Below are positions 47,866 through 52,015 of a stretch of DNA of 57,115 nucleotides, in pieces. The stretch spans positions 1 to 57,115 of the forward strand of contig NZ_BSSE01000039.1 of NCBI RefSeq assembly GCF_030268965.1, in the 5' to 3' direction. The stretch is from Microtetraspora sp. NBRC 16547 (GTDB taxonomy: Bacteria; Actinomycetota; Actinomycetes; Streptosporangiales; Streptosporangiaceae). Positions within the stretch are counted from its first letter, which is position 1, and the number at the start of each line of letters is the position of its first letter. A model generated the notes under the pieces. It saw only the letters and a list, made by a program, of their open reading frames with translations. It was not told the origin of the DNA and did no database searches. Position numbers and translations under genes: made by a program.

Positions 47866-48489
47866 TCAGCGGACCCCGCGCGGGCGGAACTGGACGCTGA
47901 TCCGGGGGCCGACCGCCCGCGCGGTCTTCGGGATCGCGTGCTCCCACGTGCGCTGGCAACTGCCGCCCATCACGATGAGGTCGCCGTGGCCGAGGTCGTG
48001 GCGCAGCGCCGGCCCGCCGCCGCGCGGGCGGAGCAGCAGGGCGCGCGGCGTCCCGATCGAGATGATCGCGACCATCGTGTCCTCGGTGCGCCCGCGCCCG
48101 ATGGTGTCGCCGTGCCATGCCACGCTGTCCCTGCCGTCGCGGTACAGGCACAGCCCGGCGGTGCGGAACGGCTCGCCCAGCTCGGCGGCGTAGTGCGTGT
48201 CCAGTGCCTTCCTCGCCTCGTCGAGCGCGGGATCGGGTAGGGGACTGTCCTCGTCGTAGAAGCACAGCAGCCGGGGCACGTCGACGACCCGGTCGTACAT
48301 GTGCCGCCTCTCGGCATGCCACGGCACGACCTGGAGCAGCCGCTCGAACAGGGTGTCGGCGCCGGAGATCCAGCCCGGCCGGACGTCGATCCACGCCCCG
48401 TGGTCCAGGACCGTCCGCTTCACCGACGCTCCGAGAGGGCCGGGCCCGATCTCGTCGCCGCAGTCCAGCAGTGAGCTCTGGAAAATCAC
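47866..48489 (-). CDS. alkB: AlkB-like Fe(II)/2-oxoglutarate dioxygenase
   Basis: 207 residues from ATG 48489. AlkB motifs: RRHMYDRVVDVPRLLCFYDE (nucleotide-recognition lid), VAWHGDTIGRGRTEDTMVAI with the H-x-D iron ligands (~residue 125), RALLLRPRGGGPALRHDLGHG, and RTWEHAIPK with the distal His (~184), followed by RISVQFRPRGVR, the 2-oxoglutarate-binding R-x5-R. It removes alkyl groups from 1-methyladenine and 3-methylcytosine in DNA or RNA. It is divergent from the tRNA-SDR-LRR-Nudix cassette, 83 bp between starts. Confidence 0.92.
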   Translation of the reverse strand: MIFQSSLLDCGDEIGPGPLGASVKRTVLDHGAWIDVRPGWISGADTLFERLLQVVPWHAERRHMYDRVVDVPRLLCFYDEDSPLPDPALDEARKALDTHYAAELGEPFRTAGLCLYRDGRDSVAWHGDTIGRGRTEDTMVAIISIGTPRALLLRPRGGGPALRHDLGHGDLIVMGGSCQRTWEHAIPKTARAVGPRISVQFRPRGVR

Positions 48490-48572
48490 TCGTCCAGCTT
48501 AATCAAACGCGTGTTCGATCATGGCTTCCGGTGTGATGATCTGTCGGGTAGGTTGCTGATCTACGCCGCGCG

Positions 48573-48645
48573 GGGTTCATAGCGCAGTGGTCGTCGCGCC
48601 TCTTTGGCAAAGAGGAGGACGTCGGTTCGAATCCGGCTGGACCCC
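48573..48645 (+). tRNA. tRNA-like gene with GGC anticodon (nominal Ala), atypical identity elements
   Basis: Foldable cloverleaf of 73 nt: acceptor GGGTTCA/TGGACCC, D arm GCG...CGC, anticodon stem CCTCT/AGAGG with loop TTGGCAA (anticodon GGC at 48606-48608), variable AGGAC, T arm GTCGG-TTCGAAT-CCGGC. Position 73 is C and CCA is not encoded. The pair 3:70 is G:C, not the G:U that alanyl-tRNA synthetase needs; a wobble occurs at 5:68 instead. A G lies at -1 opposite C73. The body is nearly identical to the next tRNA (48658-48730). The alanine label is by anticodon only. Confidence 0.7.
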
Positions 48646-48657
48646 ACCCCTCGGCGT

Positions 48658-48730
48658 GGGCCTGTAGCGCAGTGGCTGTCGCGCCTTCCTCTCACGAAGG
48701 AGGACGCCGGTTCGAATCCGGCCGGGCCCG
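48658..48730 (+). tRNA. tRNA-Glu-like gene (anticodon CTC)
   Basis: 73-nt cloverleaf: acceptor GGGCCTG/CGGGCCC, D arm GCG...CGC, anticodon stem CCTTC/GAAGG with loop CTCTCAC (anticodon CTC at 48691-48693), variable AGGAC, T arm GCCGG-TTCGAAT-CCGGC, discriminator G, no encoded CCA. Outside acceptor and anticodon arms it differs from the preceding tRNA-like gene at only 3 positions. It does not resemble the usual actinobacterial tRNA-Glu (which starts GCCCCC). It ends 26 bp before the SDR start codon and may lie on the same transcript. Confidence 0.75.
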
Positions 48731-48756
48731 CGGAAGGAGCACGAGAAGGAGGGGGA

Positions 48757-50094
48757 ATGGACCGCGAGGGGGCCGCCGCCCTGCTGCGACTGATCGGAGA
48801 GGCGCGAGACCTTCCGCTGGGCGACCCCGACCGGCTCCGGATCGAGCACGCCGCCCTCGCCCTCGTACGGGACGGCCAGCGCCGGCGCAGGCGGGAGCGC
48901 CGGCGGGACGCCGCCGCGGCCGATGCCTCGGTGCTCGCGGCGACCGCGATGGGCGCGGTGGACCGGGTGATCGACGCCCCCGTCGGTCCCGGTCCTGGTG
49001 CTGACGCCGGTCCAGATGCCGGGGGACGGCTGCGCCGGACGCGCAGGTGCTACATCTGCAAGAGCGGGTTCGTCCACGTGGACGGCTTCTACCATCTGCT
49101 CTGTCCCTCCTGCGCCGCTCTCAACAGGGCCCGCCGCACGGCTCGCGCCGACCTGTCCGGACGGCGGGCGCTGGTCACCGGCGGGCGCACCAAGATCGGC
49201 CATCACGTCGCGCTGAAGATGCTCGGCGACGGCGCGCACGTCACGGTGACCACCCGCTTTCCCCGGGACGCGGCCCGGCGCTTCGCCGAGGCCGGGGACC
49301 GGGCGGACTGGGCCGACCGCCTGCGGATCGTCGGCATCGACCTGCGCGACCCCCGCCAGGTCATCGCCCTCACCGACCACCTCCTGGAGGGGGGCGACCC
49401 ACTGGACATCTTGATCAACAACGCCGCGCAGACGCTCCGCCGCCCTCCCTCGGCGTACGCGGCCCTGCTGGAGGGGGAGCGGCTCGGGCTCCCGGCGGGC
49501 GCGTGGTCGGCGCCCGGGTTCTCTCCGGTGCGGGCCGGAGCTCTACCCGGCGGCGAGCCGGTTCCCCTGGATGGGGATCCGCACCTCCCGGACGTGTCCG
49601 GCCTGCTCCCCGACCTCTCGGCGGGCAACTCGTGGTCGGCGCGGATCGGCGAGATCGACGCCGCCGAGGTGCTGGAGGTCCAGCTCGTCAACGCGGTGGC
49701 GCCGTTCCTGCTGATCGACCGCCTGCTGCCGCTGCTGCGGGCCACGCGTTCCCCGCGCCGCTACGTCGTCAACGTGTCGGCGGTTGAGGGGCAGTTCACG
49801 GTCGCCAACAAGACCGGACGGCACCCCCACACCAACATGGCCAAGGCCGGGCTCAACATGCTGACCCGCACCAGCGCCGCCGACCTCGCGAAGCAGGGGA
49901 TCTACCTCTGCAGCGTGGACACGGGGTGGATCACTGACGAGAACCCCCTCCCGACACGCGAGCGGCTGAACCGCAGGACTCCACTCGACGTGATCGACGG
50001 GGCGGCGCGCGTCTACGACCCGATCGTGCGCGGCGAGTCCGGTGATCCGGTGCACGGAGTCTTCCTCAAGGACTACGCGGAGTCGCCGTGGTGA
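48757..50094 (+). CDS. SDR-fold protein with zinc ribbon, catalytic Tyr missing
   Basis: 445 residues from ATG 48757 (GAAGGAGGGG upstream). Residues 1-90 are a helical, Arg/Ala-rich region. A zinc-ribbon with CYICKSGF and CPSCAALN (~98-122) leads into an SDR Rossmann domain: RALVTGGRTKIGHHVALKML (~137), LDILINNAAQTLRRPP (~217), VVNVSAVEGQF (Ser, ~340) and HPHTNMAKAGLNMLTRT, where the YxxxK catalytic Tyr is Thr. This zinc-ribbon SDR family occurs widely in bacteria and plants without a known reaction; loss of the Tyr means ordinary alcohol dehydrogenation is unlikely. Stop overlaps the next start. Confidence 0.85.
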   Translation: MDREGAAALLRLIGEARDLPLGDPDRLRIEHAALALVRDGQRRRRRERRRDAAAADASVLAATAMGAVDRVIDAPVGPGPGADAGPDAGGRLRRTRRCYICKSGFVHVDGFYHLLCPSCAALNRARRTARADLSGRRALVTGGRTKIGHHVALKMLGDGAHVTVTTRFPRDAARRFAEAGDRADWADRLRIVGIDLRDPRQVIALTDHLLEGGDPLDILINNAAQTLRRPPSAYAALLEGERLGLPAGAWSAPGFSPVRAGALPGGEPVPLDGDPHLPDVSGLLPDLSAGNSWSARIGEIDAAEVLEVQLVNAVAPFLLIDRLLPLLRATRSPRRYVVNVSAVEGQFTVANKTGRHPHTNMAKAGLNMLTRTSAADLAKQGIYLCSVDTGWITDENPLPTRERLNRRTPLDVIDGAARVYDPIVRGESGDPVHGVFLKDYAESPW

Positions 50095-51203
50095 CCCCCG
50101 GCGATCTCTACTCGCTGCTCGCCTGGTTGCGTACCGGCCGCCCGGTCGAGCGCCGCACCGACTTCGCGGTGGGCACGGCGATGCCGGACGGCCGGCTCGA
50201 CCTGTGCAAGCAGGCGCTCGGCCCGATGGGGGCCAGGCTGGTCGCCGAGGCGCTCCCGTCCGCCGGGCCGACGCGCCACCTGCTGCTGGGCACGGACGAG
50301 CTCGGTGACGCGGGGGCCGGTACGGCCGCCGACGCGGCGACGGCGTCCAGCGCTTCGACCCTCTACCTCGGATGCAACGGCATCGGCGGGGCCGGTGCCT
50401 GCCTGATCGCCGATCGGCTCGTCGCCTCGCCCGGCGTCGTACGCGGCCTGTGGCTCAAGCGCAACCCCGTCGGTCCCGACGGCGGGCTGATCATCGGGGA
50501 AGTCGTCGGCACGGGCTTGACCACGATCGACCTGGTGCAGACCCGCCTGGACGCCGGCGGCCTGGCGGCGCTGGTCGATCACATCGTCGCCGCCGGAGGG
50601 ATCGGGCGGCTGTTCGTCAGCGGCAATCCGCTCGGCCCCTCGGGCGCGGAGGAGCTGGCCCGGCTGATCGCGGCCGACGGTGTTGAGGAGCTCTACGCCT
50701 CCGCGGCGGGTCTGGGCGACAGAGGGGCGGAGTTCCTCACCGGGGCCCTGCGAGGCGGGCGGCTGCGCCGGTTGTCGTTGGCGAGCAACGGCATCGGCCC
50801 GGTGGCCGCGGCCGCCTTGATCGCCGCCGCCGTCGCGGCGGGTGCCGAGATGGTCGATCTCGGCAGGGTTCGCGCCGCAGGCGTGCTCGGTGCCCAGGAC
50901 AACCATGTCGGCGACGACGGGGCAGCGGCCGTCGCCCAGGCGCTGGCGGCGTCCACGCACCGGCCGGCCCATCTGAACCTCCGCCATACGGGGATCGGCA
51001 GCAGGGGAGCGTTGCACCTCCTCGCCGGGGCGCGGAACGCTGCCGTCCCGACGCGTTTCGTGCTGGGAGGGGGCATCGCCTCCAGGGTGAAGCGCGAGCT
51101 CGGCGCGCTGGCGGAGGCCGTACCGGAGCTGCGGCCGCATCCCGAGGTCGCCGCGGTCCGGAGCGTCCACCGCACATCACGTCGAGAGGAGAGCGGAAGA
51201 TGA
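50088..51203 (+). CDS. Leucine-rich-repeat protein (ribonuclease-inhibitor type)
   Basis: 371 residues; GTG 50088 or 50091, overlapping the SDR stop. After a ~55-residue head it holds about nine LRR units of the ribonuclease-inhibitor kind, such as LYLGCNGIGGAGACLIAD, LWLKRNPVGPDGGLIIG, LFVSGNPLGPSGAEELARL, LSLASNGIGPVAAAALI and LNLRHTGIGSRGALHLL. LRR solenoids bind proteins or peptides. No signal peptide, so cytosolic. Overlaps the downstream Nudix start (ATGA), so SDR, LRR and Nudix are coupled in translation and may form a complex. Confidence 0.88.
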   Translation: MVTPGDLYSLLAWLRTGRPVERRTDFAVGTAMPDGRLDLCKQALGPMGARLVAEALPSAGPTRHLLLGTDELGDAGAGTAADAATASSASTLYLGCNGIGGAGACLIADRLVASPGVVRGLWLKRNPVGPDGGLIIGEVVGTGLTTIDLVQTRLDAGGLAALVDHIVAAGGIGRLFVSGNPLGPSGAEELARLIAADGVEELYASAAGLGDRGAEFLTGALRGGRLRRLSLASNGIGPVAAAALIAAAVAAGAEMVDLGRVRAAGVLGAQDNHVGDDGAAAVAQALAASTHRPAHLNLRHTGIGSRGALHLLAGARNAAVPTRFVLGGGIASRVKRELGALAEAVPELRPHPEVAAVRSVHRTSRREESGR

Positions 51204-52015
51204 CAGCCGATGGCGACTTCGGCGTGCCCGGGTCGCTGGACCGGGTGTTCGCCGACGTCCGCGCGGAGCGGGCCGCCCAGGACGAGCAGTGGGGGCTGGG
51301 CGAACACCCCGACGGGACCGGGCCGGAACGCACGGCCGCCGCCGACGCGGCCAAGCGCGACACGGCGGAGGCGACCGAGCGTGGCGTGCTGACCTGGCGG
51401 CACATCCTGCTGGAGGAAGTGCTTGAGGCCTTCGCCGAGGACGACCAGGCCGCGCTGCGCGCCGAGTTGGTCCAGGTGGCCGCGGTGGCCGCCAAGTGGA
51501 TCCAGGCGATCGACCGGCGCGCTCCGTCCCCGGGGCACGCGGTGGACAGGACCCGGTTCCGCGCCATCGTCGACGTGCACCTGCTGCTCGTCCGGGACGG
51601 CGCCGTGCTGCTCGCGCGCCGGGCCGGCACCGGGTATGGCGACGGCATGTGGCACCTGCCGAGCGGCCACCTGGAGGCGGGGGAGTCGGTCGTCGACGCC
51701 GCCGTACGCGAGGCCGCCGAGGAGATCGGCGTGGCGATCCGCCTCGATGACCTGACCTTCGCCCATGTCATGCACCGGGCGCCGGACCGGGTCGGCCTGT
51801 TCTTCACGGCCGCCGCCTGGGAGCCCGAGCCGTACAACGCGGAGCCGGACAAGTGCTCGGAGATCGCCTGGTGGCCGCTCGACGCCCTCCCGCCCGACAT
51901 GATCGACTATCCGGCGGCGGCCGTACGGGCGATCGCGGCGGGCGAGCCCTTCGCGCTGCACGCCTGGGACGGCGCCGCCGATCTCGGCCCGGTCAGATCC
52001 TCGACTCGAACCTGA
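51200..52015 (+). CDS. MazG-like domain / Nudix hydrolase fusion
   Basis: 271 residues from ATG 51200 (ATGA overlap with the LRR gene). Residues ~10-105 (RVFADVRAERAAQDEQWGL, TWRHILLEEVLEAFAEDDQA, ELVQVAAVAAKWIQAID) look like an all-alpha MazG-like NTP pyrophosphatase, with EExxE-type acidic residues. Residues ~118-265 are a Nudix domain with a full Nudix box at ~155-177 (G-x5-E-x7-REAAEE-x-GV). Both domains hydrolyse nucleoside triphosphates or related diphosphates. The fusion suggests cleaning or processing of a particular nucleotide, or removal of a nucleotide cap. Confidence 0.88.
   Translation: MTADGDFGVPGSLDRVFADVRAERAAQDEQWGLGEHPDGTGPERTAAADAAKRDTAEATERGVLTWRHILLEEVLEAFAEDDQAALRAELVQVAAVAAKWIQAIDRRAPSPGHAVDRTRFRAIVDVHLLLVRDGAVLLARRAGTGYGDGMWHLPSGHLEAGESVVDAAVREAAEEIGVAIRLDDLTFAHVMHRAPDRVGLFFTAAAWEPEPYNAEPDKCSEIAWWPLDALPPDMIDYPAAAVRAIAAGEPFALHAWDGAADLGPVRSSTRT

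Follow-up and report, generated by a model that had tools for sequence, protein, structure and literature searches.

Small RNAs with a tRNA-like domain are already known beside proteins that respond to RNA or tRNA damage. In the rsr-yrlBA-rtcBA operon, which combines the Ro60 orthologue Rsr, Y RNAs, and RNA repair, the tRNA-like domain of YrlA has been suggested as a competitive inhibitor of an anticodon nuclease (PMC7790460). The MoxR-vWA ternary conflict systems, as presented by Kaur et al. 2020 (PMC7159879), place a MoxR-type AAA+ ATPase beside a vWA protein in actinomycetes, together with variable partners. Here we describe a family of tRNA-like RNAs that came to light as a tandem pair in a 57,115-nucleotide stretch of Microtetraspora sp. 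NBRC 16547 (contig NZ_BSSE01000039.1, positions 1 to 57,115; hereafter the window). The original prediction for this stretch placed the pair ahead of an operon encoding a short-chain dehydrogenase/reductase (SDR), a leucine-rich repeat (LRR) protein, and a MazG/Nudix protein, and proposed that these products act with the RNAs in a complex. Our data confirm that the observation is real, and wider than first described, and they partly support the interpretation. By genome comparison, the RNA family is tied to a chromosomal actinomycete gene set consisting of the LRR gene, usually the SDR gene, often an ankyrin gene, and in several loci a MoxR AAA+ gene with a DUF2201/vWA gene.

ARAGORN calls the two genes on the forward strand as Ala(GGC), at 48573-48645, and Glu(CTC), at 48658-48730, and Rfam matches both to tRNA (58.1 and 57.9 bits, respectively). 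The calls and an arm comparison uphold the claim that they are near copies outside the acceptor and anticodon arms: the D and T arms are nearly identical, while the acceptor and anticodon arms diverge. As had also been claimed, the GGC copy does not have the G3:U70 pair found in the other tRNA-Ala(GGC) genes of the same genome, carrying G3:C70 instead. The ordinary tRNAs of that genome include Ala (GGC three times, CGC, and UGC) and Glu (CUC twice and UUC); since this ordinary set is complete, the pair represents additional genes.

RNA 1, including its interrupted closing helix, occupies 48563-48657 (+), with a core cloverleaf at 48573-48645 (anticodon GGC, 3-bp D stem). Its minimum-free-energy fold contains both an outer helix of 6 bp (ACGCCG, 48563-48568, with CGGCGU, 48652-48657) and an inner helix of 8 bp (GGGGUUCA, 48572-48579, with UGGACCCC, 48638-48645). 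A -10-like box, TAGGTT (48549-48554, +), lies 8 nt ahead of the outer helix, which fits the family promoter rule (TANNNT) given below. RNA 2 occupies 48655-48732 (+) by sequence and fold, with a core cloverleaf at 48658-48730 (anticodon CUC) and a 10-bp closing helix (CGUGGGCCUG, 48655-48664, with CGGGCCCGCG, 48723-48732); no box of its own lies 4-9 nt upstream. The 5' strand of this helix overlaps the outer helix of RNA 1, and because 48655-48657 are common to both, the two outer helices cannot both fully form. Folding energy was dropped as evidence, its z-scores not being significant (+0.67 and -0.51 when the flanks are included, -0.72 and -1.94 for the core sequences, and +1.02 for both RNAs together). 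RNA 2 as called ends 26 nt ahead of the SDR start codon, the distance originally predicted, provided that the chosen ATG at 48757 is used; the open frame itself begins at 48604. The gene overlaps hold as well, the SDR stop (50092-50094) overlapping the LRR GTG start at 50088 and the LRR and Nudix genes sharing ATGA (51200-51203).

Relatives were collected through the SDR. In an order-level sample, 123 of 297 genomes had a match with E up to 1e-40, from which 30 loci were kept, and the best 80 of at least 574 matches were kept from named genomes, giving 110 SDR loci in total (loci and genomes are cited below by L and G numbers). Many of these have ARAGORN tRNA calls, with varied anticodons, directly 5' of the SDR gene, and a fixed search read 63 RNA copies in them. 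Removal of duplicates and of copies with fewer than 7 acceptor pairs left 43, and removal of the long-arm copy L057:3462-3539 left 42 alignment rows, in which the D and T arms are near-invariant and the acceptor and anticodon arms variable. Across the cloverleaf, 97.7% of 834 cells were paired and 17 of 20 pairs had changes on both sides. Neither value was attained in any of 500 shuffles, and sliding the partner column by one lowered pairing to about 50%. The 100% pairing of the acceptor stem is partly a product of selection, since rows had been required to have 7/7 acceptor pairs; no such requirement was placed on the anticodon and D helices, and in the T stem the search fixed the two inner G-C pairs alone. 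Judged by this compensatory change, the window pair belongs to a family of tRNA-mimic RNAs, of which we collected 146 unique copies.

A family model (R1) gave 85.9 and 90.9 bits for window RNAs 1 and 2, both of which were training rows, and 91.8 bits for a G055 copy outside the training set. The ordinary tRNAs of the window genome reached at most 61.6 bits (8 of 36 fetched tRNA stretches scored), and copies fitting the DNA pattern of the RNA in 12 whole genomes scored 69-92 bits, with one at 64. This DNA pattern occurred in 61 of the 297 order-sample genomes, with 0 for a reversed-pattern control, and in 22 of 394 genomes of a class sample that overlaps the order sample. It is imperfectly specific, as one match (G104:C27:147925) resembles an ordinary tRNA-Gly. 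At the 75 RNA-free SDR loci, an R1 scan of the flanks, which spanned 1.5 kb at 15 loci and up to 4 kb at the other 60, peaked at 40.2 bits and returned known tRNAs, tmRNA, and one 21-bit match in L074.

Among the proteins, the LRR is the one most tightly tied to the RNAs by genome counts. In the 297 order genomes, 58 had both LRR and RNA, 3 the RNA only (G122, G147, and G174), 5 the LRR only, and 231 neither; the corresponding numbers were 49, 12, 5, and 231 for ankyrin, and 60, 1, 63, and 173 for the SDR. Three of the five LRR-only genomes carry a variant RNA ahead of the SDR gene (G060, with a full T-arm match; G159, 58.2 bits; G039, 52.9 bits), the latter two scores falling in the range of ordinary tRNAs and being supported by position, and in the other two (G182 and G248) the locus lies at a contig end and is uninformative on the RNA. 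In addition, an LRR homologue follows the SDR gene at 24 of 35 RNA-bearing SDR loci (34 distinct ones, as L008 and L095 hold the same SDR) versus 0 of 75 RNA-free loci. Homologous loci elsewhere do carry the RNAs, and the RNAs differ from ordinary tRNAs, so that neither of the two results named as refuting the original prediction was obtained. On a tree of the SDRs (quick method, SH-aLRT support only), the presence of RNA needs 4 changes, compared with 29.9 in shuffles. The SDR was rejected as the RNA-defining partner: it occurs without the exact pattern in 63 order genomes (of which at least G039, G060, and G159 carry a variant of the RNA), and the RNA is missing at 75 of the 110 SDR loci.

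The fullest operon, RNA(s)-SDR-LRR-ankyrin-MoxR-DUF2201/vWA, is found in L249 and L250. In L249, Pfam reports AAA_5 in the MoxR-like protein, DUF2201 and VWA in the last protein, and ankyrin repeats in the C-terminal part of a 574-aa protein whose remainder is unmatched. A MoxR AAA+ gene adjoins a vWA gene in L249 (by Pfam), in L244, L247, and L250 (by similarity to L249), and in another arrangement in L034 (by Pfam); such adjacent genes were encountered in relatives and not in the window. Twelve Streptomyces-type and related loci (L032, L034, L036-L041, L044, L049, L057, and L065; Pfam on L034 only) carry, convergent to the SDR gene, a MoxR-like gene of larger size together with a gene of the DUF2201 type. 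As a separate observation, one RNA-free SDR subfamily (L009-L020, L023, L024, and L030) has, except in L020, an unnamed gene for ~476-501 aa convergent to the SDR gene, and the C-terminus of its product looks by eye like a fragment beside the L034 vWA gene.

RNA placement varies. The RNA pattern retrieved 54 loci besides the window, some of them overlapping; 41 have an SDR or LRR gene and 2 a vWA gene only. Copies also stand before LRR or ankyrin genes. Tandem arrays reach 6 copies (L237), and in L247 RNAs are also placed between genes. L238 contains three tandem ankyrin-protein genes, with a separate RNA and promoter box ahead of each, and L243 contains four behind an RNA array. The ankyrin, MoxR, and DUF2201/vWA genes, the RNA promoters, the over-long helix, and the copies found alone or ahead of an LRR or ankyrin gene had no place in the original prediction.

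The closing helix sets the family apart from ordinary tRNAs. A contiguous closing helix of at least 7 pairs is present in 97 copies; it continues outward by 3 bp or more in 65 of them and ends at 7 in 18, compared with 0 of the 57 other tRNA genes of the window genome (the odd gene L178 included) with such an extension. The helix measures 9-15 bp in 89 of the 146 copies, 10 bp being the commonest length; hence, the 7-bp acceptor stem with a free 3' end that is typical of ordinary tRNAs is absent at the family level, individual copies varying. Promoter statistics were taken from these 89 copies, as the register is uncertain in the other 57. A TANNNT box lies 4-9 nt ahead of the first helix base in 81 of 89, with a sharp peak at 6-7 nt, and in 0 of 89 at 16-39 nt upstream; in 75 of these copies the helix begins with G. 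The same box stands 4-9 nt before the mature end in 2 of the 57 other tRNA genes of the window genome, where most boxes lie at 10-38 nt. For the remaining copies, use of a fixed 10-nt register placed 15 box matches at 9-10 nt among the 28 with 0-6 contiguous pairs, and box positions were scattered in the 29 with 7-8 pairs. The placement of the -10 box in the long-helix copies suggests leaderless transcription: because the box sits 4-9 nt upstream, the simplest reading is that the first base of this helix would be the transcription start, leaving no leader for RNase P. Taken together, the over-long helix and the promoter boxes make it seem that the RNA family is made without the usual tRNA trimming.

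We then consider the anticodon arms, for which 123 of 124 rows were used, one over-long match having been removed. A perfect arm of 5 bp and 7 nt was found in 74 of the 123 copies, corresponding to 66 unique arms with 16 anticodons, and in 81 of 146 copies of the larger set. CCA was the most frequent anticodon, followed by GGC, UGC, GCC, CUC, GUC, GCU, and CGC. The 14 arm positions outside the anticodon were compared with the tRNAs of the window genome; for the 61 arms with a counterpart there, on average 8.85 positions agree with the host arm that has the same anticodon, versus 6.36 with arms of other anticodons. As the arms are related by descent and not independent, the P value of this comparison serves as a guide only. 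Four arms (L035 CCA, L036 CUC, L039 GUC, and L120 GGC) are identical to the same-anticodon arm of the window genome. We also observed that the anticodon ends in C, and so reads GNN codons, in 40 of the 66 unique canonical arms, and that Trp CCA is the commonest (15/66).

We postulate, with a probability of about 40%, that the RNAs imitate the anticodon arms of tRNAs and serve as bait or sensor in a system of the conflict type. The compensatory pairs, helix extension, box placement, host-like arms, co-occurrence with LRR, ankyrin, and SDR genes, ribonuclease-inhibitor-like LRR, and full operon are the observations that speak for it. The RNAs would then not be translation adaptors. Their 5' end would start within the long helix, so that no RNase P step would be needed and resistance to charging would be expected. 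They could be held by the LRR and/or ankyrin proteins, and we infer that proteins and RNAs form a complex. The anticodon arms, many of them host-like, would be displayed as bait to tRNA-attacking enzymes, that is, anticodon nucleases of phage, competitor, or endogenous origin. Binding or cleavage of the bait might alter the protein complex in such a way that the MoxR/vWA-metallopeptidase pair can act. In reduced loci such as the window, the SDR and LRR proteins might signal, or host tRNAs might be protected simply by competition. The fuller picture of a surveillance system with the RNA as its variable part, in which leaderless, helix-capped mimics are the bait and LRR/ankyrin plus MoxR-vWA/metallopeptidase proteins the responders, is more speculative, and we hold it to be somewhat unlikely.

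Several observations weigh against the bait or sensor proposal. To begin with the arms, 65 of the 146 copies have no perfect 5-bp/7-nt arm, some of these arms are strongly conserved, and seven copies have one identical 20-nt arm region; conserved non-canonical arms weigh against simple bait mimicry because such mimicry does not predict them. Anticodon diversification within arrays was rejected, as diversity there is not above chance (1 of 26 pairs with the same anticodon, 2.3 expected, P = 0.30), and the anticodons are confined to 16-18 types, the majority with a final C, for which we offer no explanation. The association with genes is also incomplete: 11 of the 54 pattern-fetched loci have no system gene within 1.5 kb, and in the RNA-bearing clade of SDRs to which the window belongs, 8 of 36 rows have neither RNA nor LRR. 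Near the window, two genomes of the same genus (G082 and G198) are without the RNA pattern and the L003 copy has a broken innermost acceptor pair; the RNAs look unstable in the window's nearest kin. The window genome contains no ankyrin homologue (E up to 1e-30) and no vWA homologue (E up to 1e-3), and its MoxR matches are weak (best 6.4e-6); the window holds a reduced form of the system.

The defence profiles belong on the same side of the balance. In PADLOC (2023), the SDR and LRR proteins have no match, nor does the vWA protein; the Nudix protein matches the candidate PDC-S07 at domain level (2.4e-11), the ankyrin protein the candidate PDC-M72A within its repeats (7.3e-10), and a Streptomyces MoxR the MkoA protein over a short AAA stretch (3.5e-8). 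None of these three is a system with such RNAs, and no system was recognised. The L249 MoxR has a further domain-level match of RtcR type (1.1e-4). Finally, there is no mobile-element signal: the LRR has no plasmid match and the ankyrin homologue no match in phage records, and carriage of the system on plasmids or phages was set aside on these grounds.

Two side observations concern particular copies. The recurrent non-canonical arms (L026, L238, L132, and others) precede ankyrin, LRR, or SDR genes. The eleven stand-alone copies are those of L135, L141, L142, L143, L145, L147, L149, L152, L155, L160, and L166, and five of them (L142, L147, L149, L152, and L155) have the anticodon CCA.

A scaffold function is the alternative that survives best, and we consider it rather unlikely. 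Here the RNA would be built into a ribonucleoprotein as a structural part, much like the Y RNAs that bacteria combine with Ro60, with the tRNA shape used for protein binding and the anticodon arm unread. Constant D and T arms beside variable acceptor and anticodon arms, the many non-canonical anticodon arms, and the vWA protein near several loci would all be accommodated by such a role. The resemblance of the arms to host arms of the same anticodon is needless for a scaffold, however, and no Ro60/TROVE match was obtained among the proteins scanned.

The RNAs might also be cis-acting leaders, attenuators or processing sites ahead of each gene that tune the operon through, for example, competing folds or binding of an encoded protein. 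A total of 126 of the 146 copies have a system gene on the same strand within 1300 nt 3' (SDR 90, LRR 25, ankyrin 10, and MoxR 1), a count that is biased because many loci had been fetched via the SDR. The ~10 nt 3' of the helix are T-rich (TTT in 16 versus 2 of 89), the L247 copies sit between genes, and the window RNAs share 48655-48657 in alternative outer helices. This idea fits poorly with the stand-alone copies, with a promoter box at the start of the helix in most long-helix copies, and with tandem arrays of up to 6 copies, and it appears improbable to us.

That the genes are extra, divergent tRNAs that still decode is a more distant prospect. In its favour, the Rfam tRNA score is 58 bits, the arms resemble those of the host, and U33 is present in the 7-nt loop of 51 of the 66 unique canonical arms; the other 15 have C33 or A33, and these count against decoding. 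So do the complete ordinary set of the genome, the lack of G3:U70 in the Ala copy (the one copy for which aminoacylation identity elements were examined), a closing helix of at least 9 bp in 89 of 146 copies, and a box position that leaves no space for a leader. Furthermore, CCA is encoded in the 7-bp register of only 10 of 118 copies, compared with 15 of the 57 other tRNA genes of the window genome, and C13 is opposite U22, A22, or C22 in 120 of 146. Very improbable is a last idea, that of dedicated aminoacyl donors supplying a tRNA-dependent biosynthetic enzyme, to which the narrow range of anticodons (chiefly Trp, Ala, Gly, Glu, Asp, Ser, and Cys) would be suited, but which is opposed by the over-long helix, by the pairing of one acceptor type with different anticodons in the alignment, and by the absence of a tRNA-dependent ligase or transferase among the scanned neighbours, a subset of all neighbours.

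The window proteins were compared with their relatives in the 110 SDR loci. The SDR-fold protein (48757-50094, +; 445 aa) has a Pfam match to PF00106 (5.2e-20) and an N-terminal zinc ribbon whose four cysteines (CxxC...CPxC, residues 98-119; 49048-49113, +) are invariant in 110 of 110 rows. Classical SDRs carry the catalytic motif YxxxK and the Rossmann nucleotide-binding motif TGxxxGxG. In this protein the catalytic Tyr of YxxxK is replaced by Thr within HPHTNMAKAG (49822-49851, +), and the nucleotide-motif region reads TGGR(x)KIG, of which T, the first G, R, and the last G are invariant in the 110 rows. The absent Tyr and the zinc ribbon had thus been read correctly. Thr is present in all 110 rows, 75 of them from RNA-free loci (in a single row, the Ala preceding Lys is replaced by Ser); because it is invariant with or without the RNAs, the altered active site is a trait of the whole SDR family and uninformative on the RNAs, to which the loss of the Tyr is not linked. 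The LRR protein (50088-51203, +; 371 aa) matches Pfam LRR_6, and its PDB relatives include ribonuclease inhibitor (3.8e-11), in keeping with the repeats described at the outset.

The last protein (51200-52015, +) had been taken to join two nucleotide hydrolase domains. Its NUDIX domain stands (Pfam, 9.6e-19); its N-terminal part is MazG-like by eye only, with no Pfam match to MazG up to E = 1 and no NCBIfam match up to 0.1. Within the flanks covered, just two of the 110 SDR loci have a Nudix homologue directly behind the SDR or LRR gene, namely L001, which is the window, and L002 from the same genus; weak matches in L050, L087, and L098 do not lie directly behind the SDR gene. The Nudix was accordingly rejected as a core component, and with it its proposed part in an RNA-linked complex; as far as the flanks indicate, it is a same-genus accessory outside the conserved system.

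Some neighbouring features deserve mention. A 2OG-Fe(II) oxygenase gene (47866-48489) is divergent from the RNAs and occupies this place only in L001-L003 among the 110 SDR loci. Another odd tRNA-like gene of the window genome, called tRNA-Cys(GCA) by ARAGORN (L178:37-115, that is, G000:C1:26686-26764), combines a Glu-like D arm and a long anticodon arm with the same T arm as the RNA family, and its Rfam score of 39 bits is the lowest of all 60 in that genome. On plasmids, two partial ankyrin matches were found in Streptomyces (174 and 841 kb) and four SDR matches in records ranging from 68 kb to 2.8 Mb. Matches to the DNA pattern of the RNA also occur on 7 viral contigs; five matches (L284, L285, L287, L288, and L289) lie amid ordinary tRNA calls, and L286 has no tRNA call there. 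On the seventh viral contig, which has 65% GC, the match (L283:8599-8679) is a single copy resembling the family, outside tRNA arrays and with a terminator-like hairpin and a T-run on its 3' side.

The open-access literature that we searched, outside which most subscription journals lie, contains no description of such an RNA family or system. To our knowledge, an RNA family with its own apparent biogenesis logic and near-perfect co-occurrence with an uncharacterised gene set is undescribed. ARAGORN and Rfam label many of the copies as tRNA, which would distort counts of tRNA genes in actinomycetes. If the bait idea is true, the RNAs would be a directly testable example of decoys that serve bacteria in immunity or in resistance to toxins; if it is false, they would still represent a new RNA-protein partnership.

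Comparison with known RNAs and systems places the family as follows. Some phage tRNAs (L285 and L289) share the D-arm sequence TAGCGCAGAGGCAG, but these sit within arrays of ordinary tRNA calls. With ordinary tRNAs (RF00005), the family has in common the cloverleaf, a T loop that is mostly UUCGAAU, G18G19, and, in 81 of 146 copies, the perfect anticodon arm; it differs in helix length, promoter placement, and the 3-bp D stem of most copies, and the window copies additionally in the missing Ala identity pair of the GGC copy and in being extra to a full set. Compared with rsr-yrlBA-rtcBA, the present RNAs have a full cloverleaf, varying anticodon arms, many copies, their own promoter boxes, and a long closing helix, and the partners are SDR, LRR, ankyrin, MoxR, and DUF2201/vWA proteins; no Ro60 (TROVE), RtcB, or RtcA was found among the subset of neighbours chosen for the Pfam scan. 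The competition suggested for YrlA is the nearest published idea.

The nearest protein framework is that of the MoxR-vWA conflict systems. The available main text of PMC7159879 has tRNA and LRR once each, in the reference list, and neither ankyrin nor DUF2201. A Pfam scan of a subset of the proteins reported no third component of those systems (VMAP, iSTAND, FtsH, or beta-propeller), and the L249 MoxR has one weak match, below the cut-off, to their bpMoxR family (3.5e-4). In the loci described here, the vWA protein represents the DUF2201 metallopeptidase type, the partners are ankyrin, LRR, and SDR proteins, and it is the RNA that forms the constant element.

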